A stretch of DNA of 64,000 bases from Lysobacterales bacterium (GTDB taxonomy: Bacteria > Pseudomonadota > Gammaproteobacteria > Xanthomonadales > BPKI01): assembly GCA_026005055.1 (NCBI GenBank), contig BPKI01000001.1, forward strand, positions 744,001 to 808,000. Direction: 5' to 3'. Below the pieces are notes generated by a model. That model saw nothing but the letters and a program-made list of their open reading frames with translations. It was not told where the DNA came from and searched no databases. Positions 4,143 through 47,510 of the stretch are shown one piece after another. Position 1 is the stretch's first letter. Every line of letters begins with the position of its first letter. The position numbers and the translations under genes are program-made.

Positions 4143-6074
4143 TCAGCGGCGCAACAGGAAGAAGGCGATGGCTGAAAGCCCGAGCGAGAGCGCGAGGAGG
4201 CTCAGCAAGCCCAAGAAGGGCACGGCCCGCGGCGGAATACCCGCGACCGCGCTCACCACCACCACGGTCGAACCCGGCACGGCCGGCCGAGGATCAATCG
4301 TTGCCTCGTTGCGTACGAAGGCGGAGCCTGAGCCAAGGACAGCGGTGATGGTGTAGGTGAGCGAACCGCCCGGCGGAAAGACGCTCACGGTGTGCGCGAT
4401 CGCGCCGATCCCGGAGGCCGCCGGGCACACCGCGCCGCCGCTCGCTGCGCAGGTCCAAGAAAAGCTGGTGATTCCGGCGGGCACGGGATCGCTGATGGTC
4501 GTGCCAGAGCCGTCCGCTGGGCCTGCGTTGGTCACGGTAAGGGTCCAGGTGAAGGGCACGCCCGGCGTGACCGTCGCTGGGCCGGTCTTGCTGGCGTTGA
4601 TGGTGATCGTCGGGCCCGTGGCGGGGCAGGCGAAGTCGGTGTCATTGATGGCATGGGGGCTCACCACATCGCCAGGCGAGGTGAGCGCGGGATTGGCCCC
4701 GCCGAGTCCGGGTCCTTGCGCCGAGCCCCACCAGTTGCATGGCAGCTGCGCCAGCCCTTCATCCGGTTGATTGTCCAGGCCAACCCCGTTGCCGACGAAG
4801 CGGTTGGCGCTGCCGCTGACCTGCGCCTCGCCGGCGATCGGCCCGGGCGGCGCACAGGTGCCGCCGAGCGACCCAGTGAAAGTGCGCAGCCAAATCCCGA
4901 CCACCGAAGCAGATTGAATGGTGTTGGCGTCTGCGGGTGCGGTCGCCGGATTGAGCACAGCCTGGGCATGCGCGCAGTTCTGGGCGCCGTAGACCAGCAG
5001 ACCCTCGTTGGCGCCGCTCAAGGTATTACCGCGGAATACCGTGGTTCCCGGAAAGACGAGCGCGTTGCGCCAACGATTGGTCCGCATCGTGTTGTTGCGC
5101 ACGTCGACCGGAGAACCGCCCACGTCCGGGTAGGAACAGAGACCGCCGTCGGAGGTTTCGATCAGGTTTCCGAGCACTTGCGTCGGTGCGGCGCTGAGGT
5201 AGAGGAGGATGCCGCAGCCGAAGAAACTGTCGCTGTCGATGCTCGGCCCGCAAGTAGGCGAGGCGAGCTCACACTGGAAGCGCCGAATGGTGTTGTTGCG
5301 GATCGTCCCCCTCGCGCCGAAACCGAACTGGATGCCGTTCGGCGCAATCACCGTCTGGGTGCGTGGCGGATTGGGCGGGTTTTGCTCCCCCAGACCGCCG
5401 TCGCGAATGAGTGAGTTTTCGATGGTGCAAATGGTTCCCGCTTCGTTACAAACGATTCCGGTCTTCTGACAAAAGCGCACCTCGCTGTCGCGGACGGTAA
5501 GGTTTCCGCCGGCATAGGAAACCGAGGAGAAAAAACGGCCCGCGCGGATACAGTTCCCGGCTTGGGTTCCGGAGACGGTCGCGTCATGGATTTCCTGGAC
5601 CAGGACGCGCTCAATGAGAACCGTCGGATTCCGGATGGTCAGGATACCCTCGACCGGCGCTGTCGACGTAGGCGGATACTGTGCCGAAGGGAAACGGACC
5701 TGCAGGTCGCGAATGCTCACTGTGACCGGACCATCCACGGCCAGGATCACCGCCCCCGTGCCGATGATCGGGTCCGGGAGCTGGGCGGAGAGCTGCGGGG
5801 CAATGATCGTCGAGGTCTGCCCTGCGCCCTGCAGCGACACACTCTTGGTGATGCGCGGAGATTCGCTGTAGGTCCCGGCGGCGATCTGGATGGTGTCGCC
5901 GGCGGCGGCCTGGTTATGCGCGTGCTGAATCGTCGCGCAGGGGGTGATGATGTTGGTGCACGGATTCGGGCCCGCATCGGAGCCACTGGGCGCGACGTAA
6001 CGCGTTTGTGCTAGAACCGGGAAAAGCGGACACAGCCCGAATAGAAGAATGACGAGCCTTCCAAACCAAGACAT
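4143..6074 (-). CDS. secreted parallel beta-helix protein with DUF11 domain and IPTL-like C-terminus
   Basis: The protein has 643 residues from the ATG at 6074. Residues 1-23 are a signal peptide, then RYVAPSGSD opens a DUF1565-like start of a right-handed beta-helix. The helix runs to about residue 480, with many short repeats such as IRNNTIRRF, VRDSEVRFC and VRNNTMRTN. A DUF11 domain follows (about 480-605), and the end is AVPFLGLLSLLALSL plus more hydrophobic residues and a final RR, resembling an IPTL-CTERM sorting signal. It is likely exported and surface-attached. Beta-helix proteins bind or cut polysaccharides, but no catalytic residues can be named here. The frame stays open upstream to 6536, but the signal peptide fixes the start at 6074, and TACTCT (6108-6103) lies 28 nt before it. 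Confidence 0.8.
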   Translation of the reverse strand: MSWFGRLVILLFGLCPLFPVLAQTRYVAPSGSDAGPNPCTNIITPCATIQHAHNQAAAGDTIQIAAGTYSESPRITKSVSLQGAGQTSTIIAPQLSAQLPDPIIGTGAVILAVDGPVTVSIRDLQVRFPSAQYPPTSTAPVEGILTIRNPTVLIERVLVQEIHDATVSGTQAGNCIRAGRFFSSVSYAGGNLTVRDSEVRFCQKTGIVCNEAGTICTIENSLIRDGGLGEQNPPNPPRTQTVIAPNGIQFGFGARGTIRNNTIRRFQCELASPTCGPSIDSDSFFGCGILLYLSAAPTQVLGNLIETSDGGLCSYPDVGGSPVDVRNNTMRTNRWRNALVFPGTTVFRGNTLSGANEGLLVYGAQNCAHAQAVLNPATAPADANTIQSASVVGIWLRTFTGSLGGTCAPPGPIAGEAQVSGSANRFVGNGVGLDNQPDEGLAQLPCNWWGSAQGPGLGGANPALTSPGDVVSPHAINDTDFACPATGPTITINASKTGPATVTPGVPFTWTLTVTNAGPADGSGTTISDPVPAGITSFSWTCAASGGAVCPAASGIGAIAHTVSVFPPGGSLTYTITAVLGSGSAFVRNEATIDPRPAVPGSTVVVVSAVAGIPPRAVPFLGLLSLLALSLGLSAIAFFLLRR

Positions 6075-33195: not shown

Positions 33196-34038
33196 ATGTC
33201 CTTGCATCCGCGCTTTCTCCTTCTCCTGCTCGTCGGCATCGCCTCGCTCCCTCTTGATGCGGCGCGAGCGCAGAACTGCGCCGGGCCCTTCGCCATCGGC
33301 GAGATCCAACGCACCTATCGCGATCCGGCGCGCGGGAACCGCGCCGTCGGGGCGCTCATCCGCTACCCGGCCACACGTGCCGGCAGCAATGCGCCGCCGG
33401 TCACCGGCTGTGCCTTTCCGGCCGTGGTCTTCGGCCACGGTTTCACGATCGGCCATACGGCCTATCGTTTCATCAGCGACGGTTTGGTGCCGGCAGGCTA
33501 CGTGCTCGCCTTTCCGAGCACCGAGGGCGGATTGAGCCCCAGCCATGCGCGCTTCGCCGCCGATCTGGCCTTCGTCGCTCGTGCCCTCGCCACGGATTCG
33601 CTGCTCGGACCGGCGCTCGGTAGCGGCCGCGCCATCGGCGGCCATTCGATGGGCGGCGGCTCGGCGGTACTCGCCGCGTCGGGGAATGCAGGCATCCACG
33701 CCCTTTTCGCGCTGGCACCGGCCGAGACCAATCCTTCGGCGGCCGCGGCGGCAACCGGTGTCAACGTGCCGACGCAGTTCGTACTCGGCAGCCGTGACTG
33801 CGTGACACCTCGCGCCCGCCACGCCCAGCCCATCTTCGATCGTCTAGGAACGCCCTCGGGGCTGAAGTTCATTGAGGAGATCGCCGGAGGAAGCCACTGC
33901 CAGTTCAGCAACGGCGCGTGGACCTGCTCCTTCGGTGAGAGCTCTTGCGGCGGCAGCGCCACGATCAGCGCCAGCGCGCAACATGCGCAGACCATCGCCA
34001 TCCTGCGCGGCTTTCTCGATGGCGTGTTCGGGCGCTGA
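33196..34038 (+). CDS. secreted alpha/beta hydrolase with disulfides
   Basis: The protein has 280 residues. Residues 1-25 are a signal peptide. The catalytic triad can be read as Ser151 (AIGGHSMGGGSAV), Asp201 (LGSRDCVTP) and His234 (GGSHCQFSNG). Several cysteines lie next to the Asp and His and near the C-terminus (CSFGESSC), which suggests disulfide-stabilised loops outside the cytoplasm. The layout resembles dienelactone-hydrolase and chlorophyllase/polyester-hydrolase-like secreted esterases. The substrate is not known. A strong intrinsic terminator follows at 34062. Confidence 0.78.
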   Translation: MSLHPRFLLLLLVGIASLPLDAARAQNCAGPFAIGEIQRTYRDPARGNRAVGALIRYPATRAGSNAPPVTGCAFPAVVFGHGFTIGHTAYRFISDGLVPAGYVLAFPSTEGGLSPSHARFAADLAFVARALATDSLLGPALGSGRAIGGHSMGGGSAVLAASGNAGIHALFALAPAETNPSAAAAATGVNVPTQFVLGSRDCVTPRARHAQPIFDRLGTPSGLKFIEEIAGGSHCQFSNGAWTCSFGESSCGGSATISASAQHAQTIAILRGFLDGVFGR

Positions 34039-34061
34039 GGAAGCCTCTCCGCTCTCTCTTG

Positions 34062-34093
34062 CCCCGCGCGCCGACCGGGCGCGCGGGGTTTTT
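34062..34093 (+). terminator. intrinsic terminator of the secreted hydrolase gene
   Basis: CCCCGCGCG (34062-34070) and CGCGCGGGG (34080-34088) form a perfect 9-bp stem, with two more possible pairs inside, followed at once by TTTTT. It lies 24 nt after the stop. Confidence 0.88.
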
Positions 34094-34298
34094 ATTCTTG
34101 TTCGCCGGCGTCCTCGCGATCGAGTTTTCGGTCAAAGGCGTCTTTGCGTTCGAGGCCGATCTTTTCCACGGCCTTCGCCCGTCCGATGGCCTTGATCTGG
34201 GCCTCGAAGACGGTTTTTTCCGGTGGCGGTTCTGGCTCGCGCGAACAGGCGCCGATGAAGGCGCTCAGGAGGAGGACAGCGCAGACTCGATGGATCAT
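34092..34298 (-). CDS. small lipoprotein, unknown function
   Basis: The protein has 68 residues. MIHRVCAVLLLSAFIGAC is a lipoprotein signal with the modified Cys18. The mature part (EPEPPPEK, then a charged helix ending DREDAGEQE) is short and hydrophilic. GGGGAG lies seven bases before the ATG. It would be anchored in the inner or outer membrane; the residue after the Cys is Ser, so it is not retained by an Asp+2 signal. The 3' end overlaps the T run of the terminator read from the other side. It is divergent from the AMP nucleosidase gene. Confidence 0.6.
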   Translation of the reverse strand: MIHRVCAVLLLSAFIGACSREPEPPPEKTVFEAQIKAIGRAKAVEKIGLERKDAFDRKLDREDAGEQE

Positions 34299-40744: not shown

Positions 40745-40773
40745 TTGCCAGGGCCTGGTGCAGGTCCTAAGCT
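40745..40773 (+). promoter_or_regulatory. promoter of the riboswitch-btuB unit
   Basis: TTGCCA (40745-40750), a 17-nt spacer and TAAGCT (40768-40773) place the transcription start near 40780, right at the 5' edge of the cobalamin riboswitch. Confidence 0.5.
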
Positions 40774-40780
40774 TCGCGCC

Positions 40781-40965
40781 GCCAGGTGTCCGCCGTCCGC
40801 TCGGGCGGCGGGTGAAACGGGAAGCCCGTGCAAATCGGGCACTGCCCCCGCAACGGTGAGCCCGGCAGCGCCGCATCGAAGGCCACTGCGCGAAAGCGCG
40901 GGAAGGTGATGCGGCCGGGGTGCGCAAGCGCCCCTCCGGGGAGTCCGGAGACCGGCCTGGCCTCG
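40781..40965 (+). promoter_or_regulatory. cobalamin (AdoCbl) riboswitch
   Basis: The region has the conserved aptamer words in order: GGTGAAACGGGAAGCC near 40811, GCAAATCGGGCACTGCCCCC near 40830, CGCAACGGTGAGCCC near 40849, and the B12 box GAGTCCGGAGACCGGCC at 40941-40957. It lies 150 nt upstream of btuB in sense orientation, which fits control of B12 uptake by adenosylcobalamin. The 145 nt up to the btuB ATG act as expression platform. Confidence 0.93.
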
Positions 40966-41041
40966 ATCCGGGACGTTCCGCACCGGATCGCCGGGGTGCC
41001 GCGGTGGGCGGTGCCGGCCGGTAAGGGGCGGGTGTCTTTGC

Positions 41042-41111: not shown

Positions 41112-42890
41112 ATGTCCCTCATGTTTCTTGCCGCCCTCGCGGCGGCCCTGCCCGCGGCCAGCGAAGAAAGCGCTCGCCGTCTCGATCGCTTGCAGGTGGT
41201 GGCCAATCGCATCGAGCAACCGGTCGCTGAGGCGTTGGCCGCGGTGGTGGTGCTCGACCGCGAGGCGATCGAGCGCAGCCAGGCGAGCGATATTCTCGAG
41301 CTGCTTCGTCGCTTGCCCGGGCTCGATGTGGCCCGTACCGGCGGCAGCGGCCAAAGCACCAGCCTGTTCGTGCGCGGCGGCAACTCCAACCATGTCCTCG
41401 TCCTGATCGATGGGGTGCGGGTGGCGAGCGTCAACACCGGCGGCTTCGCCTGGGAGCAGCTCGCGCTGGAAGAGATCGAGCGGATCGAATACTTGCGCGG
41501 CCCGCGCGCCAGCCACTATGGCTCGGATGCGATCGGCGGCGTGCTTTTGATCACCACCCGCAAGGGCCTGAAGCCCACCGCGGCGCTGCGCGCCGGCCGC
41601 TATGGCCGCGGCATCGTCGCTGCCGGCTTGGGTCTTGGCGATGAGGAGGCGGGGTTGCGTTTGAGCGCCGGCGCCGAAACCTACGACGGCTTCTCGGCGC
41701 AGAATCGGCAGGGCTTCAGCTTCGATCCCGACCGCGATGGCTTCGAGCAGAAGCATCTCGGGGCGCGGCTCGGTTTCGCCCTGGGCGCGCAGAACCTCGA
41801 GTTTTCCCTGCGCGCCGCCCGCGGCGACACCGAGTTCGACCGGGGCGAAAGCGAGGCACGTCAGAATCACTTCGCGGGAAAGCTCGAGGGCAGCCTGAGC
41901 GAGGGCTGGACGCATGGCGTCTCGCTCGCGCAGGCGCGGGATTCATTGTTCAGCGAGCCCTCAGGCTCCCGTTTCGAGACCCGGCGCGCCGCTTTCGATT
42001 GGCTCCATCAGGTCGAGCTCGGCGAAAGCGCGCAGCTTGGCCTCGGCCTGCATTGGCTGCGCGAACGGGGCGGGCAGCTTCGCCGCGATGGCAGCGCAGT
42101 CTTCGCCGGCCGCCGCGAGCGCTTGGGCGGCTCGCTCGCGCTGACCGGTGCCATCGCGCCTTGGCGCTATGAGTTTTCGCTGCGCCATGAGGACAGCGAC
42201 GGCTATGGCACCCACACCACCGGCCAGGCGGCCCTCGGCTATGACTTCGGTAGCGGGCGGGTGTATCTGAGCGCCGGCGAAGGCTTCCGCGCCCCGAACT
42301 TCAATGAGCTGTTCTCCCCCGGCTTCTCGGGGCTGTTCGCGGGGAATCCGGCGCTCGAACCGGAGCGCTCGCGCAGCGTGGAACTCGGGGTGGATGCCGA
42401 AGTGGGTGCCTTCGATGTGGGTCTGAGGTTCCATCGAAGCCGTTTGCGCGATCTCATCGCCTTTCAGGGCCCAAACTTCCAGGCGGTCAACATCGCCCGG
42501 GCCAAGACCGAGGGGGTGGAGCTCGAGGCTTCGACCACGCTTGCAGATTGGCGCTTGAGCGGCCGCGCGCAGTATCTCGAAGCCGTGGATGAGGCCACGG
42601 GGCTACAGTTGCTCAGGCGGGCGCGCCGGCAGGCGGGCCTCGGCGTCGAGCGCGCTTTCGGTGCCTGGAGCGTGGGCCTCGATGGTCAGTACATCGGCCG
42701 CCGGCGCGACTTCGGAGGCGATCTCAAGAGCTTCGCCCTCTGGGAGGCGCGCGCGGAATGGGCGATCGCCGAGGGCTACCGGCTTCAGGCCAAGCTCGGG
42801 AATCTCTTCGATCGCGAGTACACGCTGGCCCGCGGTTTCAACACCCCGGGCCGCGAGTGGCTGATCGGGCTTCGCTACGGCGGCGAGTGA
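41112..42890 (+). CDS. btuB: TonB-dependent vitamin B12 receptor
   Basis: This is a 592-residue outer-membrane receptor. A short signal peptide (1-16) is followed by a TonB-box-like DRLQVVAN (about 25-32). The plug domain runs to about 150 (LRRLPGLDVARTGGSGQSTS, FVRGGNSNHVLVLIDGVRV, LRGPRASHYGSDAIGGVL), and a 22-strand barrel ends in an aromatic-rich segment (LIGLRYGGE). The cobalamin riboswitch upstream makes B12 or a related corrinoid the likely substrate. No btuCDF or cobalamin synthesis genes are in the window. Its last 16 nt overlap the convergent esterase gene. Confidence 0.92.
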   Translation: MSLMFLAALAAALPAASEESARRLDRLQVVANRIEQPVAEALAAVVVLDREAIERSQASDILELLRRLPGLDVARTGGSGQSTSLFVRGGNSNHVLVLIDGVRVASVNTGGFAWEQLALEEIERIEYLRGPRASHYGSDAIGGVLLITTRKGLKPTAALRAGRYGRGIVAAGLGLGDEEAGLRLSAGAETYDGFSAQNRQGFSFDPDRDGFEQKHLGARLGFALGAQNLEFSLRAARGDTEFDRGESEARQNHFAGKLEGSLSEGWTHGVSLAQARDSLFSEPSGSRFETRRAAFDWLHQVELGESAQLGLGLHWLRERGGQLRRDGSAVFAGRRERLGGSLALTGAIAPWRYEFSLRHEDSDGYGTHTTGQAALGYDFGSGRVYLSAGEGFRAPNFNELFSPGFSGLFAGNPALEPERSRSVELGVDAEVGAFDVGLRFHRSRLRDLIAFQGPNFQAVNIARAKTEGVELEASTTLADWRLSGRAQYLEAVDEATGLQLLRRARRQAGLGVERAFGAWSVGLDGQYIGRRRDFGGDLKSFALWEARAEWAIAEGYRLQAKLGNLFDREYTLARGFNTPGREWLIGLRYGGE

Positions 42891-43546
42891 GGCGGAGGCG
42901 GCAGCGCGAGCGCTTGCCGCGCAGCCGGCAGGATCGCCTGCTCGAGCCAGACGCGATGTTGCTCGGCCGAGGGGTGCAGGCGATCGGGCGCAAGCGCTGA
43001 GGCGCCGAGCCTGCGGCTTATGGCCGTGAGCTCGACGAAGCGTGCTCCCTGCGCTGCTGCCGCTTTCCGCGCGACCTCGTTGAAGGCATCGATCTCGGCC
43101 GCGATCCGCGCCGGATCGCGGCCGCTTTCTCGGGCGAAAGGGGTCACGCCCCAGTCCGGGATGGAAAGCACCAGGACCCGTTCGGGGCGATTGCCGGCCA
43201 ATGCGATCGCCCGGCGCAGCAAGGCGGTGAAGTGAGCCTCGTATTCGGCGAGGGGCAGGCCGCGATACTGGTCGTTCACCCCTATGCCTAAGGTCACGAG
43301 CGCGTAAGGCGGGGTGAAAGCATGGCCTGACACCGCTTCGGCGAGCTCGCCGCTGCTCCAGCCGGTCTTCGCCAGGACCTCGAGCTCGAACTCGAGACCC
43401 TCCTCCCTCAGGGCGGAAACGAGGCGTGCGGGCCAGGCTTCGGCGGGCGCGATCCCCTCGCCCACGGTGTAGGAATCGCCGAGCGCGAGGATGCGATGAA
43501 CGCCGTTTGCCGCGAGAACGAGGCTCATGATTGCCGCCGAAATCAT
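42875..43546 (-). CDS. SGNH/GDSL esterase (arylesterase TesA-like)
   Basis: The protein has 223 residues. Block I has ILALGDSYTVGEG with nucleophile Ser25, block III has LGIGVNDQY, and the catalytic Asp/His pair is in APDRLHPSAEQH. The hydrophobic N-terminus (SLVLAANG) is too short for a sure signal peptide; the ATG seven codons later is an alternative. It hydrolyses acyl esters or thioesters, but the natural substrate is unknown. TACCAT (43584-43579) lies 32 nt before the ATG. The 3' end overlaps btuB by 16 nt. Confidence 0.8.
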   Translation of the reverse strand: MISAAIMSLVLAANGVHRILALGDSYTVGEGIAPAEAWPARLVSALREEGLEFELEVLAKTGWSSGELAEAVSGHAFTPPYALVTLGIGVNDQYRGLPLAEYEAHFTALLRRAIALAGNRPERVLVLSIPDWGVTPFARESGRDPARIAAEIDAFNEVARKAAAAQGARFVELTAISRRLGASALAPDRLHPSAEQHRVWLEQAILPAARQALALPPPPHSPP

Positions 43547-43678
43547 GGGGAGGGCGCTTGAGGCCGGAGGCTTTCGCGATGGTAGCGGGAGCGGTCGGCG
43601 CGCGCGAGCCTCTCCTGCAGGCGGGGCACTGCTTGGGGTCCGTCAGAAACCCTTCGGCACGAGCCCATGGCTTCGCGT

Positions 43679-43684
43679 TAGCAT
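43679..43684 (+). promoter_or_regulatory. -10-like TAGCAT inside GTTAGCATCG
   Basis: TAGCAT ends 26 nt before the patatin ATG. It is the third copy of the decamer found before alaA and the gene at 26649. Confidence 0.4.
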
Positions 43685-43710
43685 CGAAGGCCCTCACTCG
43701 CGAGCGGTCG

Positions 43711-44595
43711 ATGCCCTCTTCCAACTTGAGTCTTTCCCTCGTTCTCGGTGCGGGCGGCGCGCGCGGGCTCGCCCACATCGGGGTGATCGAGGAGCTAATC
43801 GCTCGCGGTTACCGCATCGTCTCGATCGCTGGCAGCTCGATGGGCGCCTTGGTCGGCGGCATCTACGCCGCCGGCAAGCTCGAGGAGTACCGAGATTGGG
43901 TGATCAAGCTGCAGAGGCTCGATGTGCTGCGCCTTTTGGACTTCACCTGGCGCGGCGGCGGAATGATCCGCGGCGAGCGGGTCATCGGCGTCCTGCGCGA
44001 GCTCGTCGGCGAGCATCAGATCGAGTCGCTGCCTGTGTCTTACACCGCAGTCGCGGTGGACATCGACGCCGAGCGCGAGGTCTGGCTGAGCCGCGGCTCG
44101 CTTTTCTCGGCGATCCGGGCTTCCATCGCGATCCCGGGAATCTTCACCCCCCTCGAGCTTCACGGCCGCCGGCTGGTGGATGGGGGACTGCTCAATCCCG
44201 TCCCGGTGGCGCCGACGCTGCGCGACCTGAGCGATCTGACGGTCGTGGTGAACGTCAATGCGGTCAACGGCCAAATCCTCCCGTCGAGCGCGTCTCGTGC
44301 ACCGGAGGCCGGCGAGGAAGACGCGAACGACGATGCCTCGATCGGCTGGTGGGGGCGCATCCGGAGAGGGCGGCGACTCAGACGACAGAGCACGATGGAG
44401 CTCCTCGCCCGATCTTTGGATCTCATGATGCAAAGCATCACCCGCCATCGGCTCGCCGGCCATCACCCTCATTTGCTGATCGAGGTCTCGCGCGATGCCG
44501 CGAGCTTTTACGAGTTCTGGCGCGCCCAGGAGCTCATCGAGCTGGGTCGGCGTTGCGCCGTGCAAGCGCTCGACCGTCTCGCCGCGCAGCGATAA
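43711..44595 (+). CDS. patatin-like phospholipase
   Basis: The protein has 294 residues. LVLGAGGARGLAHIGVIEEL gives the oxyanion-hole glycines, the nucleophile is in IAGSSMGALVGG (GxSxG), and the Asp of the dyad is in LVDGGLLNPVPV. There are no membrane helices and no barrel, so it is a cytoplasmic RssA/YlbK-type patatin with likely acyl hydrolase activity. An upstream open frame is not family-like. It is monocistronic. Confidence 0.87.
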   Translation: MPSSNLSLSLVLGAGGARGLAHIGVIEELIARGYRIVSIAGSSMGALVGGIYAAGKLEEYRDWVIKLQRLDVLRLLDFTWRGGGMIRGERVIGVLRELVGEHQIESLPVSYTAVAVDIDAEREVWLSRGSLFSAIRASIAIPGIFTPLELHGRRLVDGGLLNPVPVAPTLRDLSDLTVVVNVNAVNGQILPSSASRAPEAGEEDANDDASIGWWGRIRRGRRLRRQSTMELLARSLDLMMQSITRHRLAGHHPHLLIEVSRDAASFYEFWRAQELIELGRRCAVQALDRLAAQR

Positions 44596-44627
44596 AAAAC
44601 CCCGGAGGCCAGGGGGAACCTCCGGGG
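44594..44627 (-). terminator. intrinsic terminator facing the polA side
   Basis: CCCCGGAGG (44600-44608) and CCTCCGGGG (44619-44627) form a perfect 9-bp stem. On the minus strand it is followed at once by TTTTTT (44599-44594), so it stops transcripts coming from polA or from the RNA candidate above it. It begins at the patatin stop and may also slow plus-strand transcripts. Confidence 0.75.
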
Positions 44628-44698
44628 CCGGGGTTTGCGGCCTGCCGGTGGGGAGGGCCGGGAGGCCGCGCGGGGTTCACTCGTCTCGAGTGATCCGG
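44594..44698 (-). ncRNA. candidate small RNA downstream of polA
   Basis: On the minus strand three hairpins follow each other. TCACTCG/CGAGTGA with a 3-nt loop lies at 44677-44693. GCGGCCT/AGGCCGC at 44637-44669 has a loop that exposes CCCTCCCC. The last is the terminator above. TGCAAT (44710-44705) could be the -10 box, giving an RNA of about 105 nt. Small RNAs Spot 42 and ErsA lie just downstream of polA in Enterobacteria and Pseudomonas, so the locus is telling. The C-rich loop could pair with Shine-Dalgarno sequences. Existence and start are inferred. Confidence 0.45.
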
Positions 44699-44819
44699 GA
44701 AGGCATTGCACCTTCCGAGCGATTGGAAAACGGCCTGCGGCGGAAGTTCCCGGAGCAGATCGGTGACAGCGGAGCGCACCGGATCCGTTCAGCTCCCGTT
44801 CGGTTTGCCCCCAGGGTGC

Positions 44820-47510
44820 TCAGTGGGCGGCGTCCCAGTCGCGTCCGAAGCCAACATCGACGATCAGGGGAACGGCGAGTTCCGCAGCTTCGGTCATCGC
44901 TCCTCGCACCTTGTCGGCGAGGGGCTCGGCGAAGGCCTCGCGCACCTCAAAGACGAGCTCATCGTGAACCTGGAGGATCATGGCCGCGCGCTCGCCATCG
45001 AGCAGCGGATCGCGGGCGATGGCGACCATTGCACGCTTGATGATGTCGGCAGCGCTCCCCTGCATCGGCGCGTTGATCGCCGCTCGCTCCGCCGCTTGCC
45101 GGCGTTGCGGCTGGCGGGCCTTGAGGTCGGGAAGATACAGGCGCCGACCGAAAAGGGTCTCGACATAGCCCCGCTCGTGCGCGCTCCGGCGGGTTTCTTC
45201 CATGTATCGGCGCACGCCGGGATAACGCTCGAAGTAGCGTTCGATGTAGCGCTCGGCCTCCTCGCGGGGGATCGAAAGCTGGCGAGAAAGGCCGAAGGCG
45301 CTCATCCCGTAAATGAGGCCAAAGTTGATCGCTTTGGCGGCGCGGCGTTGCTCTGGGCTGACCTCGCCGAGCGGCACGCCGAAGATTTCAGCGGCGGTGG
45401 CGCGGTGCACGTCCTGGCCCTCGCGGAAGGCGGCGAGCAAGCCCTCATCGCGCGAGAGGTGGGCCATGATCCTCAGTTCGATCTGCGAATAATCCGCCGA
45501 GAGCAACAGATAGCCTGGGGGCGCGATGAAGGCGCGGCGGATGCGGCGGCCCTCCTCGGTGCGCACCGGGATGTTCTGAAGGTTCGGATCCGAGCTCGAG
45601 AGCCGGCCCGTGCCCGCGACCGCCTGGTGGAACTGGGTGTGGACGCGACCGGTGTGCGGATCGATGAGCTCGACCAGGCGGTCGGTGTAGGTGCTCTTGA
45701 GCTTGGCGAGCTGCCGGTATTCGAGCACGATGCGCGGAAGCTCATGGTGCTCGGCGAGCTGTAGCAGCGCTTCCTCGTCCGTGGAGGGCTGGCGGGTGGG
45801 CGTGCGGCGCGTGACCGGCAGGCCCAGCTCGCGAAAGAGCACCTCGGCGAGCTGCTTGGGGGAATCGAGATTGAGCGGCCGCCGAATGAGCGCTTCGGCC
45901 TGGGCGCGCAAAGCATCGAGGCGTTTTCCAAGCTCCCGGCCGTGGCTCTTGAGCTGCTCGACGTCGAGCAGGACCCCGCGCCGCTCCATCGCCGCAAGCA
46001 CCGGCAGCAGGGGCATTTCAATCTCCTCGTAGATGCGGCGGAGGGAGGCTTCGGCCTCGAGCCGAGGCCAGAGCCGCTGATGCACGCGCAAGGCGATGTC
46101 GGCATCCTCCGCGGCGTACTCGCAGGCCGCCTCCACCGGCACTTCCGCGAAGGGAATCTGGCGCGCGCCCTTGCCGGCGACCTCTTCGTAGCGGATGGTG
46201 CGGTAGGAAAGCTCGCGCTCGGCCAAGCCATCGAGATCGTGGCGGCCGCTTCCGGGGTCGAGGACGTAGCTTTCGAGCATCGTGTCATGAGCGATGCCGC
46301 GCAGCGCAATCCCGTGATGGGCGAGCACGTGCAAGTCGTATTTGAGGTTTTGCCCTACTTTCGGCCGGTCCGGGTCCTCGAGCAGGGGCTTGAGGCGCGC
46401 GAGCGTCTCGGCGAGGGGGAGCTGAGGCGGTGCACCGGGATAGCGATGAGCAAGGGGCAGATACCAGCCTTCGCCGGCTTCGACGGCGAAAGCGAGGCCG
46501 ACCAGCCTTGCACGCATCGGATCGAGGCTCGTGGTTTCGGTGTCGATGGCGATCAAGGGCGCCTGCGCCAGCGCGGAAAGCAGGCTTTCGAGGCTCTTTT
46601 CCTCGAGGATCAGACGGTACTGTCCGCGTTGAGCCGAGGGTTGAGGCTCAGGCTTGCCCGAGAGCGGATCGAGCTCGCGCAGCCAGCTCGCGAACTCGAA
46701 GCGCTCGAAAAGCTTGCGCAGGGCCTCGCGTTCGGGAGGCTTGCGCACGAGATCGCGGGGGGCGATGCCGAGGGCAAGATCGTCCTTGAGGGTGACGAGC
46801 TCCTTCGAGCGCGGCAGCCATTCGGTGGCTTGGCGAAGGTTCTCGCCGAGTTTTCCTGGGATGTCCTCTGCGTGCGCGATGAGGTTTTCGAGGGTGCCGT
46901 AGGCTTGGAGCCATTTCGCGGCGGTCTTCTCGCCGCATTTTTCGACGCCCTGGATGTTGTCGATCTTGTCGCCGACGAGGGCGAGGAAATCGGTTATCTG
47001 GCTCGGCTTGACTCCGAATTTGGCCTCCACCCCGGCCTCGTCGAGCTCGGTGCCGCTCATCGTGTTCACCAGCCGGATACGGGGGCCGACGAGCTGCGCG
47101 AGATCCTTGTCGCCGGTCGAGATCACGACCTCGATGCCCTCGGCGGCCGCCCGGCGGGCGAGGGTGGCGATCACATCATCGGCTTCGACATTCGGGATCC
47201 GCAGCACCGGCACGCCGAGCTTCTCGACGATCTCGATCAAAGGTTCGATCTGGCGGGCGAGATCATCGGGCATCGGCGGCCGGTTGGCCTTGTACTCGGG
47301 GTAGCGCTCATGCCGGAAATTGCGACCGCCGGCATCGAGGACGAAGGCGATGTAATCAGGGTTTTCCCGCAGCGCCGCCCGCACCATGTTGAGGGTGCCG
47401 AACATCGCGTGGGTGGGTTCGCCGGCGCGATTGCTGAGCGGCGGCAGGGCGTGGTAAGCGCGGAAGAGATATCCCGAGCCGTCGATCAGGTAGAGTTTCG
47501 GGGTCGGCAT
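44820..47510 (-). CDS. polA: DNA polymerase I
   Basis: This is an 896-residue protein. Residues 1-290 are the 5' nuclease (LYLIDGSGYLFRAYHALPPL, VEADDVIATLA). About 310-480 are the 3'-5' exonuclease with its acidic residues intact (AIDTETTSLD, GQNLKYDLHVL, YAAEDADIAL), so proofreading should work. About 500-896 are the polymerase: motif A LLSADYSQIELRIM, motif B RRAAKAINFGLIYGMSAFG, motif C QVHDELVFEV. It fills gaps in repair and removes RNA primers. TACAAT lies 21 nt before the ATG. It is divergent from the DUF2782 gene. Confidence 0.97.
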   Translation of the reverse strand: MPTPKLYLIDGSGYLFRAYHALPPLSNRAGEPTHAMFGTLNMVRAALRENPDYIAFVLDAGGRNFRHERYPEYKANRPPMPDDLARQIEPLIEIVEKLGVPVLRIPNVEADDVIATLARRAAAEGIEVVISTGDKDLAQLVGPRIRLVNTMSGTELDEAGVEAKFGVKPSQITDFLALVGDKIDNIQGVEKCGEKTAAKWLQAYGTLENLIAHAEDIPGKLGENLRQATEWLPRSKELVTLKDDLALGIAPRDLVRKPPEREALRKLFERFEFASWLRELDPLSGKPEPQPSAQRGQYRLILEEKSLESLLSALAQAPLIAIDTETTSLDPMRARLVGLAFAVEAGEGWYLPLAHRYPGAPPQLPLAETLARLKPLLEDPDRPKVGQNLKYDLHVLAHHGIALRGIAHDTMLESYVLDPGSGRHDLDGLAERELSYRTIRYEEVAGKGARQIPFAEVPVEAACEYAAEDADIALRVHQRLWPRLEAEASLRRIYEEIEMPLLPVLAAMERRGVLLDVEQLKSHGRELGKRLDALRAQAEALIRRPLNLDSPKQLAEVLFRELGLPVTRRTPTRQPSTDEEALLQLAEHHELPRIVLEYRQLAKLKSTYTDRLVELIDPHTGRVHTQFHQAVAGTGRLSSSDPNLQNIPVRTEEGRRIRRAFIAPPGYLLLSADYSQIELRIMAHLSRDEGLLAAFREGQDVHRATAAEIFGVPLGEVSPEQRRAAKAINFGLIYGMSAFGLSRQLSIPREEAERYIERYFERYPGVRRYMEETRRSAHERGYVETLFGRRLYLPDLKARQPQRRQAAERAAINAPMQGSAADIIKRAMVAIARDPLLDGERAAMILQVHDELVFEVREAFAEPLADKVRGAMTEAAELAVPLIVDVGFGRDWDAAH

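Follow-up and report, generated by a model that had tools for sequence, protein, structure and literature searches.

A predicted small RNA gene with C-rich loops downstream of polA in a Lysobacterales bacterium: a divergent relative of sX13 behind a sigma-E-type promoter

Does the row of hairpins behind polA in a Lysobacterales bacterium merely end the polA transcript, or does it belong to an RNA gene of its own? The locus lies in a 64,000-nucleotide stretch of contig BPKI01000001.1 (assembly GCA_026005055.1), referred to here as the window. A preliminary description, made from the letters alone, proposed a small RNA (sRNA) of unrelated sequence at the site that Spot 42 and ErsA occupy in other gammaproteobacteria, with a C-rich loop that may bind Shine-Dalgarno regions and with TGCAAT as the -10 element. 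It also held that an absence of compensatory changes in the stems across relatives would leave only a polA terminator. The central proposal, an sRNA gene downstream of polA with C-rich loops, is supported by the computations given below, as are the compensatory changes; the supposedly unrelated sequence and the proposed promoter are not.

The predicted RNA starts ~103 nt past the polA stop codon on the same strand, a position downstream of polA that it shares with sX13, and is followed by a convergent gene for a patatin-like phospholipase (Table 1). The sRNA terminator and the stop codon of the latter (44594-44596) overlap, which means that both transcripts would overlap or share a boundary. 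At gathering threshold, Rfam names nothing at the polA sRNA locus and, in the whole window, only a cobalamin riboswitch (RF00174, 89.4 bits; 40767-40974, plus strand) located 5' of a TonB-dependent receptor-like open reading frame (41112-42890), presumably a vitamin B12 transporter.

Table 1. Features of the locus downstream of polA, in window coordinates.
Feature	Positions	Strand	Basis and remarks
polA, DNA polymerase I	44820-47510	-	ORF; NCBIfam TIGR00593, 934.9 bits
-35 element GGAACTT, sigma-E (RpoE/AlgU) type	44744-44750	-	Pattern scan
-10 element TCCAA	44723-44727	-	Pattern scan; 16-nt spacer from GGAACTT
Predicted sRNA, ~123 nt	44594-44716	-	From inferred start near 44716 (promoter distance) to end of T-run
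H0, 5' hairpin, GGAAGGTGCAATGCCTTCC / GGAAGGUGCAAUGCCUUCC	44698-44716	-	Fold; loop holds TGCAAT
H1 hairpin, UCACUCG-AGA-CGAGUGA	44677-44693	-	R2 alignment; 7 bp, 3-nt loop
H2 hairpin	44637-44669	-	7+4 bp; apical loop CCCUCCCCA / CCCTCCCCA (44657-44649); canonical C-rich loop 2
H3, intrinsic terminator	44598-44629	-	13 bp; loop CCCCCU (44616-44611); T-run 44599-44594
Patatin-like phospholipase gene, convergent	43531-44595	+	ORF; Pfam PF01734, 95.4 bits

Three tandem hairpins are present on the minus strand where the preliminary description had placed them. The first is indeed a perfect 7-bp stem with a 3-nt loop (TCACTCG-AGA-CGAGTGA). For the second, the 7-bp stem had been recognized and its extent underestimated, four inner pairs having been missed. 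The 9-bp terminator stem followed by T6 corresponds to the G+C core inside a 13-bp stem. The 5' hairpin has the six Watson-Crick pairs ascribed to it, together with U-G and G-U pairs, and most relatives inspected carry a hairpin at the same position with a different stem sequence. The core of the locus (44700-44592, 109 nt) folds at -57.6 kcal/mol, compared with -40.9 +/- 3.7 kcal/mol for dinucleotide shuffles (z -4.5, 0/200). In the predicted 123-nt fold, the bases of loops 2 and 3 are 94-100% unpaired. With a 5' end corresponding to that of published sX13, as in the Rfam sX13 match to the genome, the alternative extent would be 115 nt (44707-44593).

That match also answers the question of relatedness: by the Rfam model, the element is homologous to sX13 (RF02232), though divergent. 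On 44400-44900, the best match covers the full length of the model (1-115) at 29.5 bits (E 0.00036-0.00117), below the sX13 gathering score of 50 bits, and the polA locus is the sole match in a search of the whole genome. Plain DNA similarity extends over the terminator only, in a few relatives. A covariance model built from 34 relatives with the window excluded (R1) finds the window locus as its sole match in the 2.44-Mb genome (E 1.2e-6), as does a refined model (R2) likewise trained without the window (E 2.0e-6). Apparently chance R2 matches in other classes reach E ~1e-5, so values of this order are not proof by themselves, and the case for the window combines score, position, promoter, and covariation. 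Elsewhere in the window, a weak R2 match (34004-34094, plus strand; 20.7 bits, E 0.033) is probably a mere G+C-rich terminator.

The report on Xanthomonas sX13 (PMC3771888) describes a 115-nt RNA, encoded 175 bp downstream of polA, with three stems that carry C-rich loops. It represses mRNAs containing G-rich motifs, such as GGGG close to the start codon, in an Hfq-independent manner, and binding to Shine-Dalgarno regions is its demonstrated mechanism. Repression requires C-rich loops on the side of the sRNA and G-rich motifs on that of the target. The gene is stated there to be exclusive to Xanthomonadaceae. The window RNA and sX13 both follow polA and are of similar length. They share C-rich second and third loops, carried by stems that covary, a comparable terminator loop (CCCCCU, versus UCCCCCU in sX13), and a 5' hairpin with TGCAAY in the loop region. 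The published 5' end of sX13 appears to fall inside this 5' hairpin and may therefore be a processed end.

Besides its low score, the window RNA differs from sX13 in the first loop. Three C-rich apical loops are found in the folds of 79 of the 81 members of the order-level alignment, in which the UCCCC of H2 is invariant. The counterpart of H1 at one related locus (L209) is GGATCACTC-ACCTCCCT-GAGTGATCC, with the C-rich loop ACCUCCCU. In the window, the H1 stem TCACTC..GAGTGA is kept and the loop is reduced from 8 to 3 nt in the R2 alignment, leaving AGA. All three stems of the sX13 pattern are thus present, with C-rich loops 2 and 3 and a first loop that is not C-rich. Given the missing C-rich loop and a score below the Rfam cutoff, the window RNA is classed as an sX13 variant rather than a strict sX13. 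The RNA could plausibly have given up this loop and remained functional, because in Xanthomonas virulence did not require loop 1 of sX13, in contrast to loops 2 and 3 (PMC3771888).

The start of the gene had been misjudged. TGCAAT, formerly taken as the -10 element, makes up the loop of the 5' hairpin, and the promoter is found further upstream as GGAACTT-N16-TCCAA (44750-44723). A sigma-70 promoter scan at the locus returned nothing. The window holds a single copy of the strict pattern GGAACTT-N15..17-TCYNA, where 0.11 would be expected, and the whole genome holds three, namely before rpoE, before rpoH, and before the sRNA. RpoE and RpoH of this genome were identified by TIGR02939 (296.1 bits) and TIGR02392 (407.3 bits), and the next gene downstream of rpoE encodes a protein with an RseA anti-sigma domain. 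In the Escherichia coli sigma-E regulon, rpoE is autoregulated and rpoH is under sigma-E control. Since both relationships are textbook knowledge, the third strict site is, as far as sequence can tell, very likely a genuine sigma-E promoter.

Relatives carry the same signal. When GGAACTT plus TCT.A is scored (maximum 11) and shuffles supply the expectation, 51 of 81 loci in the order reach at least 9, compared with 2.6 expected, and outside the order 25 of 26 loci do so, compared with 0.8. The spacer is almost always 16 or 17 nt, and the element lies ~54 nt before H1; the window promoter, of the sigma-E type seen in the family, lies 60 nt ahead of the position taken as the start of H1. An element of this type precedes the RNA in most relatives outside Xanthomonadaceae. 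In contrast to the clear sigma-E promoter of the window, the upstream region of Xanthomonadaceae has drifted to a different yet conserved sequence (CACGAACYATC..TATA), seen just after polA in, for example, L073, L074, and L083 as a conserved CTTCACGAACYATCMATG...TATA block instead of the sigma-E promoter. No tie between sX13 and sigma-E was found in the passages of PMC3771888 consulted.

The promoter bears directly on whether the RNA could instead derive from the 3' untranslated region of polA, being processed from the polA mRNA with no promoter of its own. Its location on the same strand, ~100 nt past the polA stop, would suit such an origin, and the published sX13 5' end, which would sit inside H0, is compatible with processing. 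The interval from polA to the RNA contains a sigma-E promoter that is conserved across families and also present where polA is not adjacent, which makes this origin quite improbable.

We consider it highly probable that the locus is a stand-alone, sigma-E-driven sRNA gene between polA and the convergent patatin gene, a divergent sX13 homologue whose C-rich loops 2 and 3 block G-rich ribosome-binding regions. Envelope stress would free RpoE from its anti-sigma factor, allowing it to transcribe the sRNA from GGAACTT-N16-TCCAA. The ~115-123-nt transcript would fold into the 5' hairpin, two internal hairpins, and the terminator, and the exposed C-rich loops 2 and 3 would pair with G-rich stretches at or near the ribosome-binding sites of mRNAs. 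This pairing would block translation, as demonstrated for Xanthomonas sX13 (PMC3771888).

Candidate targets are few and weak. A search for TGGGGAGG-N2-10-ATG yields 6 sites, compared with 1 in the reversed control, and two of the six resemble gene starts, those of a putative exported protein (L269) and a 105-aa putative membrane protein (L271), both with no match in Pfam. For hfq, an sX13 target in Xanthomonas, no GGGG is present in the 120 nt upstream or at the start. In the rpoH start region (L290, 1501-1560; AAUGGGGAUGAUCAUGG / AAATGGGGATGATCATGG), TGGGGA over the start could pair with the UCCCCA of loop 2. Such pairing might create a sigma-E feed-forward loop, an incoherent one like that reported for ErsA and algC; it is only a lead, since GGGG near starts is common.

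An RNA of this shape might also act mainly as a protein-binding sponge rather than by pairing with mRNA. Its highly structured, repeated hairpins would lend themselves to that role, as would the tandem copies of some genomes. Loops with GGA of the RsmA/CsrA-binding type are absent, and sX13 repression depends on the C-rich loops and the G-rich target motifs (PMC3771888), which leaves the sponge very improbable.

Compensatory changes in the stems are plentiful. Two-sided changes occur at 32 of 35 pairs among the 81 members, with a covariation of 0.60 versus 0.216 +/- 0.008 when shuffled and <=0.14 for slid partners, and 34 of 35 pairs are altered on both sides in a wider set of 61 matches, figures that are flattered by covariance model-based alignments fitted to the structure. 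In an unfitted MAFFT alignment, two-sided changes are found at 10 of the 16 pairs predicted by RNAalifold; only 16 pairs are predicted because this first alignment misplaces stem arms, and the model-based alignments were used instead. Covariation is as strong in the internal hairpins as in the terminator, within which the central 5-bp G+C core is nearly invariant and the outer pairs covary.

How far does the unit extend beyond this genome? When the regions downstream of polA are folded, four more families of the order show three hairpins with C-rich loops, and R1 matches 170 of the 250 genomes in the order at E <=0.1, with strong matches in families f5, f7, and f11, all absent from the training set. 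Among sampled Gammaproteobacteria (in the GTDB sense), R1 matches 63 of 274 at E <=0.01 and R2 matches 168 of 369 genomes at E <=0.001. The promoter-plus-hairpins unit is also present at one Nevskia and two Acidithiobacillus loci. Most inspected loci adjoin polA and/or engB (yihA), commonly lying between both; L248 and L260, two class loci with flanks cut off by contig ends, do not enter the locus counts. At gathering threshold, Rfam 15 names 3 of 35 loci tested (one ErsA, one anti-hemB, and one sX13); below threshold, the anti-hemB and sX13 models cross-match the same class-wide loci. Across Gammaproteobacteria, this combination of promoter, C-rich triple hairpin, and polA-engB site is widespread, and Rfam names almost none of these loci. 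When R2 was run on the whole phylum, the few inspected matches from other classes had no promoter and were not near polA or engB, and for these reasons they are probably chance terminators.

Some lineages show rearranged or reduced versions. Two to four sRNA copies stand in a row at L241 (G418:C33:13151-13886), G525:C8, L246, L264, L265, and G236:C2, which suggests local amplification. At L240 (G006, family f7), an R1 match lies just past the polA 3' end on the strand opposite polA, so the unit may be inverted in that lineage. After polA in L082 (~5909-5972, a KatS3mg124 MAG), a shorter two-hairpin element with C-rich loops gives a weak R2 match of 14.2 bits.

Two readings tied to the neighbouring genes can now be weighed. 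The locus might be only the transcription terminator of polA, its upstream hairpins incidental; polA does precede it in the same orientation, and H3 makes a good intrinsic terminator. The strong compensatory changes across relatives argue that it is not just that: the internal hairpins covary like the terminator, the loops keep their sequence, a sigma-E promoter is found at constant spacing, and families f5 and f11 retain the unit at least 2 kb from polA or on another contig. This reading is already largely refuted and highly improbable. That the locus serves the convergent patatin gene, in cis or as an antisense element, as the overlap of the transcription units at 44594-44595 might suggest, is extremely improbable, since relatives with other neighbours (often engB) retain the RNA and its loops point to G-rich targets.

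The stand-alone sRNA gene invites comparison with other named RNAs. ErsA (Pseudomon-1, RF01719) also adjoins polA, has a C-rich terminator loop, and follows a sigma-E-type promoter, which at L092, a Pseudomonas locus assigned to ErsA by Rfam, reads GGAACTA-N17-TCAGA. In P. aeruginosa, expression of ErsA is reported to be strictly dependent on sigma-22, the sigma-E homologue, and ErsA reportedly regulates algC and represses oprD (PMC7565897). R2 scores L092 at only 22.0 bits (E 0.018), this locus lacks the two internal C-rich hairpins, and the RF01719 model has no match on 44400-44900 up to E 10. From these sequence comparisons, homology of ErsA to the window-type RNA is suggestive, not established. 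No paper in the literature collection searched names both sX13 and ErsA. Anti-hemB of Burkholderia (RF02837) shares C-rich hairpins, and its model matches several class-wide loci, L247 over threshold and the others below; the window differs, at 22.8 bits against a threshold of 49.5. Spot 42 (spf) of Enterobacterales and Vibrio is likewise downstream of polA, requires Hfq, and is without sequence similarity to sX13 (PMC3771888); its Rfam model has no match in the window. The polA-encoded alpha-r7 of Alphaproteobacteria (RF02342) has three stem-loops with apical C-rich motifs, according to that report, and differs in that its model has no window match and one weak cross-match to a single gammaproteobacterial locus.

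We lean, with some reserve, towards the view that sX13, Burkholderia anti-hemB, and probably ErsA are separately named remnants of one ancient sigma-E-driven, polA-engB C-loop sRNA of Gammaproteobacteria, found in about half of the genomes sampled, in which Xanthomonadaceae would have changed the promoter and the window species would have dropped C-rich loop 1. Published descriptions restrict sX13 to Xanthomonadaceae and treat ErsA as an RNA of Pseudomonas. Should they be of one family, they would be one envelope-stress RNA with a simple C-loop/G-motif code. Such a single RNA, if true, would be a core component of the response to sigma-E in a large fraction of Gammaproteobacteria, almost everywhere unannotated, and would carry testable predictions on sigma-E control, on the effect of the natural loss of loop 1, and on tandem amplification in some lineages. 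It is this wider pattern of a sigma-E-driven, polA/engB-linked C-loop RNA across Gammaproteobacteria that merits attention.
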